Below, in pieces: positions 6,448 to 15,062 of a stretch of DNA of 59,985 nt. The notes under the pieces were generated by a model. The model was not told the origin of the DNA. It made no database searches and saw nothing but the letters and a program-made list of their open reading frames with translations. Position numbers and translations under genes: made by a program. Numbering within the stretch: the stretch's first letter is position 1; each line of letters starts with the position of its first letter. This DNA is from Bacteroidota bacterium (GTDB lineage Bacteria > Bacteroidota > Bacteroidia > Flavobacteriales_E > Vicingaceae). Location: positions 1-59,985 of the forward strand of contig JACPDX010000054.1 in NCBI GenBank assembly GCA_016183805.1. Direction: 5' to 3'.

Positions 6448-6483
6448 AAAAATCCCTTTATCCATTTAGATAGAGGGATTTTT
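6448..6483 (+). terminator. Rho-independent terminator of lpdA
   Basis: A 15-bp stem, 6448-6462 paired with 6469-6483, contains AAAAATCCCT and AGGGATTTTT with one wobble pair. It ends in five T residues and lies 40 nt after the lpdA stop. Confidence 0.8.
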
Positions 6484-6514
6484 GTTTAAACTTACAAAAA
6501 AATATTTAAAAAAA

Positions 6515-7051
6515 ATGAGCGAAGAAATAACTATTCCAGGGGAAATAATCGCTAGTAAAATTTATCAAATTAGAAATCAAAAAGTAATGTTAGATAATGA
6601 TTTAGCAGAGCTTTATCAAGTGGAAACACGACGTTTAAATGAGCAAGTAAAAAGAAACATTAGCCGATTTCCTGATGATTTTATGTTTCAGTTAACTACT
6701 GAAGAATGGGAGAACTTGAAATCGCAAAATGCGACATCAAGTTGGGGAGGAAGAAGAAAATTACCTTATGCTTTTACAGAACATGGAGTACTGATGTTGT
6801 CAAGTGTGTTGAATAGTGAACGAGCAATCACTATAAATATTCACATTATGAGAGTTTACAAAAGAATAAGAGAAATGTTGTTAACTCATAAAGATGTGTT
6901 AATGGAATTAGAAACAATAAAACAAAAAATAGGTTCAAATAGCAATGATATTGAGTTAATATTTAATTACCTAAAACAGTTTGAACAAATTAAACAACAA
7001 GAACTTGACTACCAAAACAGAGAACCAATTGGGTTTAGAAAGCAAAAATAG
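6515..7051 (+). CDS. ORF6N-domain DNA-binding protein
   Basis: 178 residues from the ATG at 6515. An upstream TTG at 6482 is open but lies inside the terminator hairpin, so I reject it. Residues about 10-100 match the ORF6N domain, with the characteristic stretches KVMLDNDLAELYQVETRRLN and SSWGGRRK. The C-terminus is helical and probably coiled coil. ORF6N domains come from phage antirepressors and also occur as scattered chromosomal genes in Bacteroidota. The gene ends 14 nt before the asparagine synthase gene and stands alone, with no other phage gene near it. It is probably a horizontally acquired regulator; the target is unknown. Confidence 0.85.
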   Translation: MSEEITIPGEIIASKIYQIRNQKVMLDNDLAELYQVETRRLNEQVKRNISRFPDDFMFQLTTEEWENLKSQNATSSWGGRRKLPYAFTEHGVLMLSSVLNSERAITINIHIMRVYKRIREMLLTHKDVLMELETIKQKIGSNSNDIELIFNYLKQFEQIKQQELDYQNREPIGFRKQK

Positions 7052-7065
7052 TTTGCTGAATATTT

Positions 7066-8892
7066 ATGTGTGGAATAGTAGGAATTATATCAAAAAACAA
7101 GGAAGATCTCAATAAAATTGAGGCTGCCACACAAACCCTTTCCAAGAGAGGGCCGGATAATCAAAATGTTGTTGTTTATGAACAGCTTGCTTTAGGTCAT
7201 GCCCGGCTTTCTATTATTGATACAACGGAGTCGGCTAATCAACCTTTTACCGACGAATCGGGTAGGTATATCATCGTTTTTAATGGCGAAATTTTTAATT
7301 TTCTCGAATTAAAAGCTGACTTAATAAAACAAGGAATAACCTTTAAAACCAATAGCGATACCGAAGTGTTGCTTTACTTGTTTATAAAGCATGGAAAAGC
7401 TTGTTTGGAGATGCTCAACGGTTTTTTTGCTTTTGTCATTTTTGATAAAAAAAACAACTCCATACTTAGTTTTAATATCGATAAAACTATTGATAGGGTA
7501 AGTTTGTTTAATTATTTTCAGTTCAATTACATTCCTGCCAACAATTCTATTTTTACTAAAGTTAAAAAACTAAAACCGGCACATTTTATTCATTTAACTA
7601 ACATTAATCAATTAACTAAAATACAAGAACATCAATATTATTCCATTCCTTATAACCCAAACAAATACATTTCCAATACGCCAATCAGCTATGAAAATGC
7701 ACAAAAGCAATTGCATAATTTACTCGACGATGCAGTTCAAAAACGCTTGATTTCAGATGTACCTATTGGTACTTTTTTGAGTGGAGGAATTGATTCATCA
7801 GTAATAAGCACAATAGCAAAGCGTTATAAACCAGATTTGAATACCTTTTCGATTGGTTATAAAGATGAACCCTTTTTTGATGAAACCAATTATGCTAATT
7901 TGGTTGCAAAAAAAATTGGAAGTAACCACCATGCATTCTCATTATCGAATAACGATTTGTATGAAAATTTGGATGAAGTATTGGATTACATTGACGAACC
8001 TTTTGCTGATTCTTCGGCTATTGCTGTTTATATTTTAAGCAAATACACCAAAAAACATGTAACAGTAGCTTTATCTGGCGATGGTGCTGATGAGATTTTT
8101 TCGGGATATAACAAACATGCTGCGGAGTTTAGTGTTCGGAATCCTGGTTTAAAAGAATCGTTAATGAAATTTGGGTCTCCTTTATGGAATGTTTTACCGA
8201 AATCCAGAAATCATAAACTAACCAACATCAACCGACAATTGTATAAGTTTAGTTTAGGTGCAAAATTGTCTAACAAAGAAAGGTATTGGCTTTGGGCATC
8301 TATTAATGATGAAAAAAATACCAATGATTTATTTATAAATAATCCAATAAATGAAGCAAATTTCCTGCATAGTTATCATAAGCGAAAAAATATGCTTTTA
8401 AATAATATTACTATTGAAGGTGATATAAATGAAGTGTTTTATACCGACACCAAAATGGTGTTGTTAAACGACATGTTAAAAAAAGTAGATTCAATGAGTA
8501 TGGCGAATAGTCTCGAAATTAGAACTCCTTTTTTGGATTATAGAATCGTTGACTTTGCGTTTTCATTACCCGTTCAATTTAAAATTGACGGGCAATTAAA
8601 GAAAAAAATTCTTCAAGACGCTTTTAGAAAAGAGTTGCCCGAAGAAATTTACAACCGACCAAAACATGGTTTTGAAGTCCCTTTACTATCGTGGTTTAAA
8701 AATGAATTAAAATCAACTATTGAAAATGATTTATTAAGTGATCAATTTATTTTGGAACAAGGAATATTTAATGTAAAAACCATTCAGCAATTAAAAAAAC
8801 AATTATTTTCGAACAATCCAAATGATGCAGCAGCAACGGTTTGGGCATTAATAGTTTTTAATACGTGGTGGAAGAAATATCTTTATAATTAA
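7066..8892 (+). CDS. asnB: Asparagine synthase-type amidotransferase with a missing segment
   Basis: 608 residues. MCGIVG provides the catalytic Cys2 of the class II glutaminase domain, and SGGIDSS near residue 238 is the ATP-binding loop of the synthase domain. The family makes asparagine, or amidates sugars in polysaccharide clusters, from glutamine and ATP. After FDKKNNSIL (to residue 134) the protein goes straight to SFNIDKTID. The almost invariant segment with RDRxGxKPLYY, about 30 residues, is absent and the frame is kept. The glutaminase half is therefore probably not functional as read. The GT4 gene follows after one base. Its position in the polysaccharide region favours sugar amidation, by inference. 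Confidence 0.85.
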   Translation: MCGIVGIISKNKEDLNKIEAATQTLSKRGPDNQNVVVYEQLALGHARLSIIDTTESANQPFTDESGRYIIVFNGEIFNFLELKADLIKQGITFKTNSDTEVLLYLFIKHGKACLEMLNGFFAFVIFDKKNNSILSFNIDKTIDRVSLFNYFQFNYIPANNSIFTKVKKLKPAHFIHLTNINQLTKIQEHQYYSIPYNPNKYISNTPISYENAQKQLHNLLDDAVQKRLISDVPIGTFLSGGIDSSVISTIAKRYKPDLNTFSIGYKDEPFFDETNYANLVAKKIGSNHHAFSLSNNDLYENLDEVLDYIDEPFADSSAIAVYILSKYTKKHVTVALSGDGADEIFSGYNKHAAEFSVRNPGLKESLMKFGSPLWNVLPKSRNHKLTNINRQLYKFSLGAKLSNKERYWLWASINDEKNTNDLFINNPINEANFLHSYHKRKNMLLNNITIEGDINEVFYTDTKMVLLNDMLKKVDSMSMANSLEIRTPFLDYRIVDFAFSLPVQFKIDGQLKKKILQDAFRKELPEEIYNRPKHGFEVPLLSWFKNELKSTIENDLLSDQFILEQGIFNVKTIQQLKKQLFSNNPNDAAATVWALIVFNTWWKKYLYN

Positions 8893-8893
8893 A

Positions 8894-10102
8894 ATGAAAG
8901 AAAAGAAAAAAATAAAAATATTACGTATCATTAACCGCTTTAACTTGGGCGGACCAACCTTTAATGCCGCATATTTAACCAAATACTTGAGTGATGATTT
9001 TGAAACATTGTTAGTTGGTGGAGATAAAGACGATACCGAAGAAAGCTCAACGTTTATTCTCGACCAATTGGGTTTAACACCAATCATTATTCCTGAAATG
9101 AGAAGAGATATTGGGTTTAAAGAAGATAAAATTGCCTATCAAAAATTAAAAAAAATTATTCAAGAATTTCAACCGGATATTGTACATACCCACGCTTCAA
9201 AAGCCGGGACATTAGGCAGGCTTGCAGCATACAAGTGCAAAGTTCCTGTTATTGTACATACTTTTCATGGGCATGTTTTTCATTCTTATTTTGGGAAAAC
9301 AAAAACTTTATTTTTCAAAAATATTGAACGATACTTTGCAAGAAAATCAACAGCAATCATTGCAATCAGCGAAATTCAGAAAAACGAATTAGTTGACATC
9401 CATAAAATTTGTAAAAAGAACAAAATAAAAGTAATACCTCTTGGATTTGATTTGTCAAAATTTCAGGAAAACATTGAAGAGAAAAGAAAATCATTTAGAA
9501 ATTTTTATAAAATAGACGATGATGAAATTGCTATTGGAATAATTGGGCGGTTAGTTCCAATAAAAAATCATCGTTTGTTTATTGATTCATTAAATGAAGT
9601 AAACAAGAAAACATCAAAAAAAATACGTGCTTTTATTATTGGTGATGGTGAAGAAAAGAACATTCTTCTAGACTATTGTGCCGAACTAAAAATTGATTTT
9701 AAAGAATTTACAAAAGAACCAGAAAAAGCAACCATCACTTTTACATCTTGGATAAAGGATATTGATTGGGCAAACGCAGGGCTAGATATTATTGCTTTAT
9801 CATCGTTAAACGAAGGAACTCCGGTAAGTTTAATTGAGGCTCAAGCAGCAAATAAACCAATTGTAACCACAAATGTTGGTGGGGTAGAAAATATTTTATT
9901 ACCCAATATAACTGGGTTGATTGTAAAATCTAACAATTTAATTGAATTTTCTGAAGCTTTATTTAAACTTGTTGATGATGACGAATTAAGGCTGAACATG
10001 AGTAAACAAGGATGGCTTCATGTAAAAGATAAATTTCATTTTACACGTTTAGTAAACGATATGGAGAAGTTGTACGTATCTTTGTTAAACAACTCCAAAT
10101 AA
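8894..10102 (+). CDS. Glycosyltransferase family 4 (GT-B fold)
   Basis: 402 residues. The N-terminal half has the GT4 acceptor-domain pattern (NRFNLGGPT near residue 14, then VHTHASKAG and HTFHGHVFH). The C-terminal donor domain starts around GIIGRLVPIKNH. The donor-site E-x7-E motif EGTPVSLIE lies near residue 306. The family is retaining and uses nucleotide sugars. The enzyme probably adds one sugar to the lipid-linked unit begun by the transferases encoded nearby. It lies one base after the amidotransferase gene, so the two probably share a transcript. Which sugar it uses is not readable. Confidence 0.9.
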   Translation: MKEKKKIKILRIINRFNLGGPTFNAAYLTKYLSDDFETLLVGGDKDDTEESSTFILDQLGLTPIIIPEMRRDIGFKEDKIAYQKLKKIIQEFQPDIVHTHASKAGTLGRLAAYKCKVPVIVHTFHGHVFHSYFGKTKTLFFKNIERYFARKSTAIIAISEIQKNELVDIHKICKKNKIKVIPLGFDLSKFQENIEEKRKSFRNFYKIDDDEIAIGIIGRLVPIKNHRLFIDSLNEVNKKTSKKIRAFIIGDGEEKNILLDYCAELKIDFKEFTKEPEKATITFTSWIKDIDWANAGLDIIALSSLNEGTPVSLIEAQAANKPIVTTNVGGVENILLPNITGLIVKSNNLIEFSEALFKLVDDDELRLNMSKQGWLHVKDKFHFTRLVNDMEKLYVSLLNNSK

Positions 10103-10256: not shown

Positions 10257-11027
10257 ATGAAATTGAATAAAATTAAAAGCTTACTACTTGTCGTTGTAGC
10301 TTTGTCCATCTATGCTTGTAATGTTAATCCAAGTATAATGATGAGAACTAAAAAAGATTATAAATATGATACAAATCCGGGTGATTCAACAACCGAATAT
10401 AGAATCGGACCCAGCGACATGTTGGATTTTCAATTATATACCAATGAAGGAACACGTTTAATTGATTTAACGGCACTTTCAAATGCTGAAAATAGATTAA
10501 TGGGAACAACCACTACAGATTTATTGGTTGAATATGATGGCAATTGTAAATTTCCTGTTATAGGCAGGATAAATCTTAAAGGCAAAACCATTAAAGAGGC
10601 TGTAGAAATACTTCAAGATGAGTATTCAAAATATTATATCAAACCCTTTGTATTACTTAAAGTTACCAACAGAAGGGTTACTGTTTTTACCGGAATTGGT
10701 AAAGCACAGGTGGTGCCTTTGAACAATCAATATACCACTATTTTTGAGGTTTTGGGAGCTGCCGGAGGATTATTAAAAGAAAGTAAAGCTCATAAAATTA
10801 AATTGATAAGAGGCGATTTAAAAAATCCTAAAGTCTATCTGTTTGATTTTAAAAATATTGAAGGAATTAAAGATGCTGATTTTGTTATGGAAGCAAACGA
10901 CATTATTTATGTTGAACCAAGAAAAAATGTTCTTAGTGAAGCCATTAGAGATGTAGCTCCATTAGTTAGCCTTATTACAAGCACCTTAACCTTAATAATT
11001 GTAATAAATAATTTAAGCAACAATTAA
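10257..11027 (+). CDS. Wza-like polysaccharide export lipoprotein
   Basis: 256 residues. The lipoprotein signal ends IYAC (cysteine near residue 21). YRIGPSDMLDFQLY marks the start of the polysaccharide biosynthesis/export domain, followed by an SLBB-like region (VTVFTGIGKAQVVPL to about residue 200). The C-terminus has a hydrophobic stretch, SLITSTLTLIIVI, that could cross the outer membrane as in Wza. Family members form the outer-membrane channel for capsule or exopolysaccharide. The Wzc-like kinase gene starts 3 nt after it, so the pair forms the usual export and control module. Confidence 0.9.
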   Translation: MKLNKIKSLLLVVVALSIYACNVNPSIMMRTKKDYKYDTNPGDSTTEYRIGPSDMLDFQLYTNEGTRLIDLTALSNAENRLMGTTTTDLLVEYDGNCKFPVIGRINLKGKTIKEAVEILQDEYSKYYIKPFVLLKVTNRRVTVFTGIGKAQVVPLNNQYTTIFEVLGAAGGLLKESKAHKIKLIRGDLKNPKVYLFDFKNIEGIKDADFVMEANDIIYVEPRKNVLSEAIRDVAPLVSLITSTLTLIIVINNLSNN

Positions 11028-11030
11028 TTC

Positions 11031-13451
11031 ATGAGTGATAACCACTTAAATAACCAAAAGAGTGAGGCTATTTCTAATTTTAATACTGAATTAGATATTA
11101 TTCTGTTACTTCAAATTTTCAAGAAAAATTTGCTGTTGTTTATTGCTATTATTCTTGCATGTGTGGTTGTTTCGTTTCTTTACTTAAGATATACCGTCCC
11201 TTTATATCAATCACAATTAGTACTTCAAGTGGGTTCAAAAAACACAGCCGATCAGGTACTTAAAGTGGATAACTTTCAAGAAGATGAAGATGTTGCAAAA
11301 GATGTTGAATTATTAAAATCAAAATTTTTATTAAAACGAGCCTTGGCAAAATTACCTTTAGAGGTTAGTTATTTCAATAAAGGTAAATTTTTAACTTTTG
11401 AGTTGTATAGAAACTCGCCATTAGAAGTGAGTTTTGTTGTTAAAGATTCCAGTATTATAGGTTTGCCTTTTTATGTTGAATTAACTGGAAATAGTAAATT
11501 TAAACTTTATGAAAACGAACTGTTTTTGGGTGAATTTTCAAACAACCAAGAAATTAAGTTATCAAAAGTTAACTTTAAGGTTTTTATAGATGGATACGAA
11601 GAGGTTAAAGCATCACAGTCAAACATAAAAGGCACATCATTATATTTTACCATTAACGATATCGAAAACCTTACCAATAATTACATTTCCAGATTAAATG
11701 TTTACCCTTTAAATCCTTCTGCTAAAACCATAAGTTTATCTTTTCAGGATAATAATGCCGTTAAAACTGCTGATATTTTAACAGCATTAGCTAACGAATA
11801 TATTGTTTATGATATTGAAGAACGTAGTAAAAGTTCTAAAAAGGTAATAGAGTTCTTAGATGATCAATTGGATAAATATTATAACAAAGTAAAATTATCA
11901 GAAAATAGTATCGAAGATTTTCAGAAAACAAACAAGCTTTCTGATATCGATAAATTTTCATCACTTTATGTTGATAGAGTGAATAAACTCGAAAACGATT
12001 TAATAGATTTTGATTTACAAAAAAATGTTTTAACTGAAATTAATAATTCTTTAAAAGGAAAAACAAAAGAAATCAATGTCTATAATTTGTTGCCAATTTT
12101 GTCGGGAACAGAATATGAAACAAGAATAACAGCTTTAATTACTGATTTACAAGATTTATTGGTTCAGCGTCAGAAAATTTTAACTGAATCAACAAAAGAG
12201 AGTGAAACCTTAAAATTACATGACCAACAAATTGAAATTCAGAAAGAAGTGTTGTTCAAATCTATTTCATCGTTAGTAGAAAAACTTGAATATAGAAGAA
12301 AAGAAATTGTCAAGAAGATTGCTGAAATACAAAACAAATACTTAAACGTCCCTGCCAAGGAATTGGAATATGCCCGATTGCAAAGAGTATTATCGATTGA
12401 TGAAAAGTTTTTCACTCTTATTATGGAAAAACGGACGGAATATTCGATTTCTGAAGCAGGATTTGTTCCGCAACACACTATTTTAGACAAAGCTGTTATA
12501 CCGGGATTACCTTTTTCGCCTAATAAAAAAATCATCATAACTACAGGTATTTTATTAGGTATTGTAATTAGTATTATTATTTTAATATTGAGGTATATAT
12601 TAAAGAATACCATTAGCTCAATTGATGAAATTACAAAACATGCAAACGCTCTAGTGGGTATTTTAGGCTCTGTACCAATTTATAGTCGTGAAATACCTGT
12701 TTCGCAATTAGTAATTAATAGGGATCCAAAATCAATTATTTCTGAATCTTTCAGGTCTATTCGAACCAATCTTCAGTTTATTTCTAATGTTGAAGGTAAA
12801 AAAGTAATGGCAATAACTTCGACTATTTCAGGAGAAGGAAAAACATTTTGCACATTAAATTTAGGCGGTATTATTGCCATGTCGGGAAAAAAAGTAATTA
12901 TACTCGATTTAGACATGCGTAAACCTAAAATTCATACTGGTTTTGGAGTCAAAAATGATAAAGGAATGAGTACTATTTTGATTGATAAGGATGATGTAAG
13001 AAGCTGTATTCATCACAGTGAACTTCAAAATCTGGATTTTATAACTTCAGGGCCAATTCCTCCAAATCCTTCAGAGCTTATTATTAGCGGAAAGTTAGAT
13101 GAGGTGGTGGAGGATCTTAAAAAAGATTACGATTTGGTTATCTTAGATAATCCACCTATTGGGTTGGTTTCGGATGCCATGGAAATGCTTAAAAAAGTGG
13201 ATTATCCAATTTATATTTTTAAATGTGAATACTCTAGAAAGAACTTTATCAATAATTTGAATAAATTAATTGTTGAAAATGGCATCAAAAATTTATCAGT
13301 TATTTTAAATGGGGTAGATTTTTCGAATAAATACTATAGCTATGGTTATAATTATAATTATAGTTATGGTAATAAGGATGGTTATTATTACGATGACACC
13401 AAAAAAGAAAACATAGTGAACCGAGTGTTAAAAAGAAAAAAGAAAGGGTAA
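11031..13451 (+). CDS. Wzc-like polysaccharide co-polymerase and tyrosine autokinase
   Basis: 806 residues. An N-terminal membrane segment (about 33-52) precedes the Wzz domain and a long coiled-coil periplasmic region. A second membrane segment lies near 500-520. The cytoplasmic BY-kinase has Walker A SGEGKT (near 600), Walker A' LDLDMRKP, and a Walker B-like segment VILDNPP. A tyrosine-rich tail with about a dozen tyrosines (near 765-785) is the expected autophosphorylation cluster. Such proteins set chain length and control export together with the Wza channel. The gene overlaps rfbC by one base (TAATG). Confidence 0.93.
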   Translation: MSDNHLNNQKSEAISNFNTELDIILLLQIFKKNLLLFIAIILACVVVSFLYLRYTVPLYQSQLVLQVGSKNTADQVLKVDNFQEDEDVAKDVELLKSKFLLKRALAKLPLEVSYFNKGKFLTFELYRNSPLEVSFVVKDSSIIGLPFYVELTGNSKFKLYENELFLGEFSNNQEIKLSKVNFKVFIDGYEEVKASQSNIKGTSLYFTINDIENLTNNYISRLNVYPLNPSAKTISLSFQDNNAVKTADILTALANEYIVYDIEERSKSSKKVIEFLDDQLDKYYNKVKLSENSIEDFQKTNKLSDIDKFSSLYVDRVNKLENDLIDFDLQKNVLTEINNSLKGKTKEINVYNLLPILSGTEYETRITALITDLQDLLVQRQKILTESTKESETLKLHDQQIEIQKEVLFKSISSLVEKLEYRRKEIVKKIAEIQNKYLNVPAKELEYARLQRVLSIDEKFFTLIMEKRTEYSISEAGFVPQHTILDKAVIPGLPFSPNKKIIITTGILLGIVISIIILILRYILKNTISSIDEITKHANALVGILGSVPIYSREIPVSQLVINRDPKSIISESFRSIRTNLQFISNVEGKKVMAITSTISGEGKTFCTLNLGGIIAMSGKKVIILDLDMRKPKIHTGFGVKNDKGMSTILIDKDDVRSCIHHSELQNLDFITSGPIPPNPSELIISGKLDEVVEDLKKDYDLVILDNPPIGLVSDAMEMLKKVDYPIYIFKCEYSRKNFINNLNKLIVENGIKNLSVILNGVDFSNKYYSYGYNYNYSYGNKDGYYYDDTKKENIVNRVLKRKKKG

Positions 13452-13993
13452 TGCAAATTGAAAAAACTGAAATTGATGGATTGTTAATTATTACACCAAA
13501 GGTATTCGAAGATGAAAGAGGTCATTTTTTTGAATCGTTTAATAAAAACATATTTCTTAAAAACGGAATTGATACTGATTTTGTTCAGGATAATCAATCG
13601 TTGTCATACAAAAATGTGTTAAGAGGTCTTCATTTTCAGAATCCACCTTATGCCCAAGCAAAATTAGTTAGTGTTATAAAAGGAGCTGTGCTAGATGTCG
13701 CTGTTGATATTAGAAAAAACTCTAAAACTTTTGGAAAACATTTTAAATTGATTCTATCTGAAAAAAATAAAACAATGCTCTATATTCCTGTTGGCTTTGC
13801 ACATGGGTTTCTAGCTATAGAAGATAATACTGTTTTTTCCTACAAGTGTGGTAATTTTTATCATCAAGAGTCGGAAAATAGTATTTTTTGGAACGATGAA
13901 ACTTTAAATATTGAATGGGGTATAAAAAAACCATTAGTATCAGAAAAGGATAATTCGGCTGTTTCTTTTAAATCGTTTACTAGTCAATTTTGA
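13451..13993 (+). CDS. rfbC: dTDP-4-dehydrorhamnose 3,5-epimerase
   Basis: 180 residues, the usual length. GLRGLHFQNPP-type sequence (here VLRGLHFQNPP) contains the catalytic histidine, and IPVGFAHGF is the second family signature. The enzyme inverts C3 and C5 of dTDP-4-keto-6-deoxyglucose on the way to dTDP-L-rhamnose. rfbA, rfbB and rfbD are not in the window and must lie elsewhere if the pathway is complete. It overlaps the kinase gene by one base and is followed after one base by the WecA-like gene, so it is probably in the same transcript. Confidence 0.92.
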   Translation: MQIEKTEIDGLLIITPKVFEDERGHFFESFNKNIFLKNGIDTDFVQDNQSLSYKNVLRGLHFQNPPYAQAKLVSVIKGAVLDVAVDIRKNSKTFGKHFKLILSEKNKTMLYIPVGFAHGFLAIEDNTVFSYKCGNFYHQESENSIFWNDETLNIEWGIKKPLVSEKDNSAVSFKSFTSQF

Positions 13994-13994
13994 T

Positions 13995-15062
13995 ATGGAA
14001 TTAATTTCTTGGAAACATATTATTTTTTTTATTGGAACAATAATTTTTTCGTTTTTAATCAACTCTATACTTTTAAAATTTGTAAAAACACTAGGTATTA
14101 GAAATCAAAATGAAACTACCATAAGATGGAGTGAACAAGTAAAACCTGCACTTGGCGGATTAAGTTTTTATATTATTTTTTTATTGTCAATTACTTTACA
14201 TCCTTTCATATTTTCGTATAGTGCTTCATCAATCGACTTTCAATTTACCGGTATTATTGGTGCTACTTCGCTTGGGTTTTTAATGGGATTAGCCGATGAT
14301 GCTTATAACACCAAACCATTACTTAAACTAATTACACAAATTTTATGTGGTGTTATTCTGATATATTCCGGAACATACATCACTGTTTTCGATTCGTTAT
14401 ATCTAAACTATTTACTCACCATTGTTTGGGTGGTTGGATTAATGAATTCTATAAATATGTTAGACAATATGGATGGAATTACCACTTCAATTTCTTTAAT
14501 TATTACATTAACCATTTTCGTTATCATGTTGTCAAATCAGGAATTTGATTCTATTGCTATGACAGTAGTAATAGGTTTGTCGGGTACTCTTTTTGCATTT
14601 TTATATTTTAATTGGAATCCATCTAAAATGTTTATGGGCGATACAGGTAGTCAGTATTTAGGTATATTACTTGCCGCATTAAGTATAAATTATTTATGGA
14701 ATCCTGTAACAACAACCGAATTTTCAGTTTCTCGTCAATTTTTAATTCCAATATTATCTTTTATTGTTCCAATTGTAGATACATTAACCGTTGTTATTAA
14801 GCGAGTTGGAAATGGAAAATCGCCATTTATTGGAGGAAAAGATCATACTACCCATCATTTATCTTATTTAGGTTTATCTGAAAAACAAGTTGCAATAATA
14901 GCAGCTTTAATATCAATTGTTTCGTCGGTTTTAGTTGTTTATTTAATCTCTTCAATAAAATATTGGAGTCATGTATATACCATAATATTCTCAAGTTATT
15001 TCTTAATGGTATTTATAACCTTATTCTATATTTCAAAGAAAAATATTGATAAATCAAAATAA
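13995..15062 (+). CDS. WecA/MraY-family undecaprenyl-phosphate sugar-1-P transferase
   Basis: 355 residues with about ten predicted membrane segments. The Mg-binding motif NMLDNMDG lies near residue 153, and the second signature FMGDTGSQYLG near 213. A cytoplasmic histidine motif, GGKDHTTHHLSYLG, near 285 is typical of the WecA branch. The enzyme moves GlcNAc-1-P or a related sugar onto undecaprenyl phosphate. With the other initiating transferase at 2968-4386, this locus encodes two different initiators, so it may serve two glycans or be a fused cluster. A heptad array joins its stop to uvrA. Confidence 0.9.
   Translation: MELISWKHIIFFIGTIIFSFLINSILLKFVKTLGIRNQNETTIRWSEQVKPALGGLSFYIIFLLSITLHPFIFSYSASSIDFQFTGIIGATSLGFLMGLADDAYNTKPLLKLITQILCGVILIYSGTYITVFDSLYLNYLLTIVWVVGLMNSINMLDNMDGITTSISLIITLTIFVIMLSNQEFDSIAMTVVIGLSGTLFAFLYFNWNPSKMFMGDTGSQYLGILLAALSINYLWNPVTTTEFSVSRQFLIPILSFIVPIVDTLTVVIKRVGNGKSPFIGGKDHTTHHLSYLGLSEKQVAIIAALISIVSSVLVVYLISSIKYWSHVYTIIFSSYFLMVFITLFYISKKNIDKSK

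Follow-up and report, generated by a model that had tools for sequence, protein, structure and literature searches.

A 30-residue in-frame gap, private to one genome among those compared, in an AsnB-superfamily amidotransferase gene of a Bacteroidota bacterium

Amidotransferases of the TIGR03108 type (WbpS, or eps_aminotran_1) belong to polysaccharide and linking-sugar pathways, as exemplified by PGN_1234 of P. gingivalis (PMC7468200). In the better known asparagine synthetases, the side chains of Val-141 and Arg-142 of the human enzyme (ASNS) project into the ammonia tunnel, with Arg-142 proposed as its gate, and E. coli AS-B has an isoleucine at the position cognate to Arg-142 (excerpt of PMC11615228); the arginine side chain itself is thus not essential to the family. 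The titles and opening lines of abstracts that we searched held no natural deletion in the glutaminase domain of an asparagine synthase or synthetase.

Here, we describe an AsnB-type gene with such a deletion in a 59,985-nt stretch of contig JACPDX010000054.1 (assembly GCA_016183805.1; Vicingaceae), hereafter the window. The account that we favour, with reasonable but not full confidence, is that the gene for an AsnB-superfamily amidotransferase of a polysaccharide locus, probably WbpS-like, recently lost 90 nt in frame, in this lineage alone.

An AsnB-type gene in a polysaccharide gene block

The gene (positions 7066 to 8892, forward strand) is recognised by Pfam and NCBIfam models as an AsnB-like glutamine amidotransferase and encodes 608 residues that begin with MCGIVGI. 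Its synthetase domain (7711 to 8868, forward strand; residues 216-601) is uninterrupted, contains the SGGIDSS motif, and matches PF00733 (Asn_synthase) at 308.3 bits against a cut-off of 21. The protein also scores 415.1 bits with TIGR01536 (asparagine synthase, glutamine-hydrolysing), above the curated cut-off of 267.1. By E-value its best NCBIfam model is TIGR03108, at 436.4 bits, which is below the cut-off of 816.9; three intact relatives likewise fall below it (494.3 for the intact sister, 494.3, and 524.9).

The part of the class II glutaminase domain that precedes the gap (7066 to 7461, forward strand) keeps Cys2, directly after Met1, together with Arg47, Asn73-Gly74-Glu75, and Asp98, all of them invariant columns of our alignment and presumably catalytic or binding residues of the domain. 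A complete class II glutaminase domain, with its RDxxGxxP segment, is not present, and the Pfam glutaminase matches end early (GATase_6 at position 104 of 130 and GATase_7 at 91 of 123).

Downstream, the gene is followed by a GT4-type glycosyltransferase gene (8894 to 10102, forward strand), which adjoins asnB in four relatives too, and then by genes for a Wza-like export protein, a Wzc-like kinase, RmlC (rfbC), and a WecA/MraY-like transferase (10257 to 15062, forward strand), in an order kept in four relatives. The metagenome-assembled genome Flavobacteriales bacterium H5_BAC5 (JABTUP010000001.1; our loci L049 and L040) has the same order as the window, namely lpdA, asnB, GT, wza, wzc, rfbC, wecA, and uvrA, with an asnB ortholog that, unlike the window gene, contains the 30-residue segment. 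Between lpdA and the AsnB-type gene, the window carries an ORF6N-domain gene (6482 to 7051; PF10543, 134.7 bits), for which no match was found at E 1e-8 in the corresponding regions from four relatives. H5_BAC5 has no match to it and instead has three other ORFs in that slot; the small ORFs occupying the slot in the sister genome were named by eye as nucleotidyltransferase-like, acetyltransferase-like, and unknown. On the basis of sequence and gene order, we classify the window gene as an AsnB-superfamily amidotransferase within a conserved polysaccharide gene block. By analogy, its family and neighbourhood suggest that the enzyme is probably WbpS-like and may form the amide of a uronic acid in a surface polymer.

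The missing segment and its distribution among homologues

A previous sequence-only reading of the window had proposed that the gene lacks, in frame, about 30 residues including the RDRxGxKPLYY segment. Alignment with the nearest relative in the genome collections searched, the H5_BAC5 ortholog L049, confirms this and sets the loss at exactly 30 residues, with 500 of 607 aligned residues identical and only one other gap, of a single residue at the extreme C-terminus. In the window protein, S-I-L (residues 132-134; 7459-7467) leads directly into SFNIDKTID. MAFFT places the junction, at which 30 codons (90 nt) of the compared relatives are missing, between S132 and I133 (7461/7462, forward strand), a position that could shift by about three residues at most. 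Beyond it lie the C-terminal edge of the glutaminase domain and the linker (7462 to 7620, forward strand; residues 133-185, drawn from the L049 alignment and the AlphaFold2 models with the end set by choice).

In a 40-row alignment, 109 columns are invariant in the 39 rows other than the window gene, which keeps 101 of them and substitutes none; the remaining eight (R, D, R, G, K, P, F, and S) fall in the gap. In the AlphaFold2 model of an intact relative, the segment comprises strands at 132-137, 146-149, and 154-157 together with a short helix at 160-163, and the counterparts of Val-141 and Arg-142 of human ASNS lie within it, as mapped by alignment with the numbering checked. The model of the window protein has a mean pLDDT of 87.9, with values below 50 at residues 131-136. 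Over residues 1-130, the mean of the 10-residue blocks is about 83 for the window protein against about 95 for the intact relative, and the blocks covering 171-190 score 85 and 81 against 96 and 93. The synthetase halves score 91.0 and 91.7, respectively (39 blocks, counted from residue 211 in the window protein and from 241 in its relative, with the last partial block excluded). Predicted confidence therefore falls mainly in the glutaminase half, a result to be read with the caution that AlphaFold is no stability test, cannot prove misfolding, and still builds a glutaminase-like half.

Is the gap a family trait? The window protein was searched against its own genome, 60 relatives (its own genome included), 46 family genomes, and, in one scan, the GTDB species genomes (80 loci kept of 81). 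These sets overlap, the 46 family genomes being largely the same as the 60 relatives and some GTDB loci coming from the same genomes again. ORFs were extracted for the best-ranking of the matches listed in each search, which samples the distant paralogues without exhausting them. This gave 113 distinct homologous ORFs, the window gene among them. Of the 112 others, three do not reach the gap site and 109 cover it, among them five paralogues encoded in the same genome as the window gene and a few ORFs truncated where a contig ends; all 109 of these best matches have the segment with RDRxGxxP, and none has the gap. Eight more distant ORFs, chosen because their match to the query spanned the gap site in one piece, have the segment as well, with [RK]DxxGxxP in seven. 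The eighth, from a distant AsnB relative (L138, on contig C41 of genome G018), reads RDRFSIKP, with serine in place of the usually invariant motif glycine. Of three other genomes of the genus in the collections searched, two have a segment-bearing ortholog and the third gave distant matches only among the matches listed.

The gap is thus present in one of 118 covering sequences, that of the window gene alone, and we describe it as private to one genome among those compared. Being that rare and spanning eight otherwise invariant columns, it is not ordinary family variation. The same gap in close homologues from several genomes would have pointed to a true AsnB subfamily, a possibility that the sequence-only reading had raised against itself; it was looked for and found in none of the 109 best-match ORFs from the overlapping searches and none of the eight added ones. 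Within the genomes searched, we set aside a gap-defined subfamily, to which we give almost no credence.

Age, origin, and reality of the deletion

How old might the deletion be? Selection was assessed with a codon model on five sequences with very long branches and saturated synonymous sites (NG86 dS of about 2.1), which makes for a weak test; in the glutaminase part, some branches lay at the bound. Over the whole gene and subject to that saturation, omega on the window branch is below 1 (2dlnL 19.3 against omega = 1) and does not differ from that of the other branches (2dlnL 0.72). When the synthetase half is taken alone, omega is estimated at 0.044 on the window branch and 0.012 elsewhere, which is not a significant difference (2dlnL 2.83), and support for a value below 1 on the window branch is weak (2dlnL 4.02). 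Where three outgroups agree, the window branch has 17 amino-acid changes and the sister branch 13. With omega below 1 and no difference between branches, decay, if any, is recent. An old pseudogene under relaxed selection was considered and rejected, as no relaxation was seen over the whole gene in this saturated and weak test (2dlnL 0.72). The selection data would suit an artefact or a protein still under constraint as well as a deletion that is young relative to the species split, and do not separate these.

The sequence-only reading had further suggested that the flanking LS-F codons are the fused ends of a short direct repeat, and this part did not hold up. In seven of the 20 closest relatives, an exact run of 4 nt at the 90-nt spacing lies only a few bases from the junction, with no longer run there in any of the 20. 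Longer runs at that spacing (5-8 nt) lie about 20 nt upstream in eight of the 20 relatives, and their use would have removed DKKNNS, which is retained in the window protein; one relative has a 6-nt run 27 nt downstream of the junction. Within the window itself, no direct repeat of at least 8 nt was found between 7350 and 7600. A direct-repeat origin is thus not supported by these comparisons, which leave room for an ancestral repeat private to the lineage.

As the main rival account, the deletion might lie in the contig rather than in the organism, whose gene would then be full length, with the 90 nt lost through an assembly or consensus artefact or through the assembler's choice of a minority or strain allele. 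The genome is a draft of 109 contigs, the gap is private among the compared homologues, and the remainder of the gene is conserved and, by the saturated and weak whole-gene test, under purifying selection, all of which would suit such an artefact. Against it, a clean in-frame loss of 90 nt, with no direct repeat found around it in the window and none above 4 nt at the junction in the 20 relatives, is, in our judgement, unlike the usual assembler collapse, and 11 of 12 neighbouring genes align to the sister genome without a gap (the other has 3 gapped positions), which speaks against generally poor sequence. We consider an artefact or minority allele unlikely, if far from negligible, and a real allele more likely than an artefact.

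Relocation of the segment and an intact second copy of the gene were also considered, and neither was found in the draft assembly (95.92% complete, such that absence is no proof). There, the window DNA matches itself alone. A 62-residue stretch of the relative matches five paralogues (40-52% identical), both halves of the window gene, and otherwise gives weak matches, the best being on contig C15 (E 0.03, within a 635-aa frame). The window protein itself has a weak match on contig C89 (61676-61879, E 4.5e-6). No fewer than five other AsnB-family genes, each retaining an intact RDRxGxKP-type segment, lie on contigs C33, C49, and C89 (loci L002 to L010), two of them adjacent on C89.

Likely consequences and comparison with described enzymes

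If the deletion is real, what might the enzyme still do? From sequence and models, we propose that the deletion probably abolishes glutamine use. Loss of three core beta-strands and of residues at the tunnel mouth would leave the glutaminase half misfolded or the ammonia undelivered; glutamine-dependent amidation would be lost, with at most an ammonia-dependent activity left in the synthetase half. The polymer of this strain might then bear the acid rather than the amide form of one sugar, a change that could be tolerable, or, alternatively, one of the intact paralogues may cover for the lost activity.

One further reading is of a functional variant, in which the enzyme is ammonia-dependent or is supplied with ammonia by a separate glutaminase, its N-terminal remnant serving as a scaffold. 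The uninterrupted synthetase domain, the absence of change at any other invariant residue, and the assay of human ASNS with ammonia as nitrogen source (excerpt of PMC11615228) are in keeping with it. The in-frame length of the deletion (expected by chance in one case of three) and the absence of further damage would equally be expected of a functional variant, and count to that extent against the reading that we favour. Yet the gap occurs in no compared relative, hence no conserved subfamily is seen, and every other conserved glutaminase residue has been retained, although an enzyme long settled on ammonia alone would have no need of them. We regard a functional variant as improbable, and its stronger form, a natural AsnB-type enzyme that has lost its tunnel-mouth strands and retains only a vestigial glutaminase domain but is still selected for ammonia-dependent amidation of a sugar, as more improbable still.

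Our preferred account of a recent private deletion matters mainly for annotation, in which the window gene deserves a flag as an enzyme that probably does not depend on glutamine. A real and expressed allele would offer a natural test of how large a part of the class II glutaminase core can be lost from an AsnB-type synthetase before it ceases to work with ammonia.

Set against described enzymes, the window protein shares its two-domain fold with the hydroxyamidotransferase TsnB9 (PDB 7ylz), E. coli AsnB (1ct9), and human ASNS (6gq3). Among solved structures, these are its best matches in both sequence and model comparisons, and the model of the intact relative likewise finds TsnB9 and AsnB/ASNS as its best folds; TM-scores to 7ylz_B (by target length) are 0.76 for the window model and 0.82 for that of the relative. 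With WbpS and eps_aminotran_1, the window gene has in common a setting among polysaccharide genes, and its protein differs from them by the missing glutaminase segment. What we have confirmed looks like a private deletion in a known enzyme family, an ordinary mutation (or an assembly flaw) rather than a new kind of enzyme.
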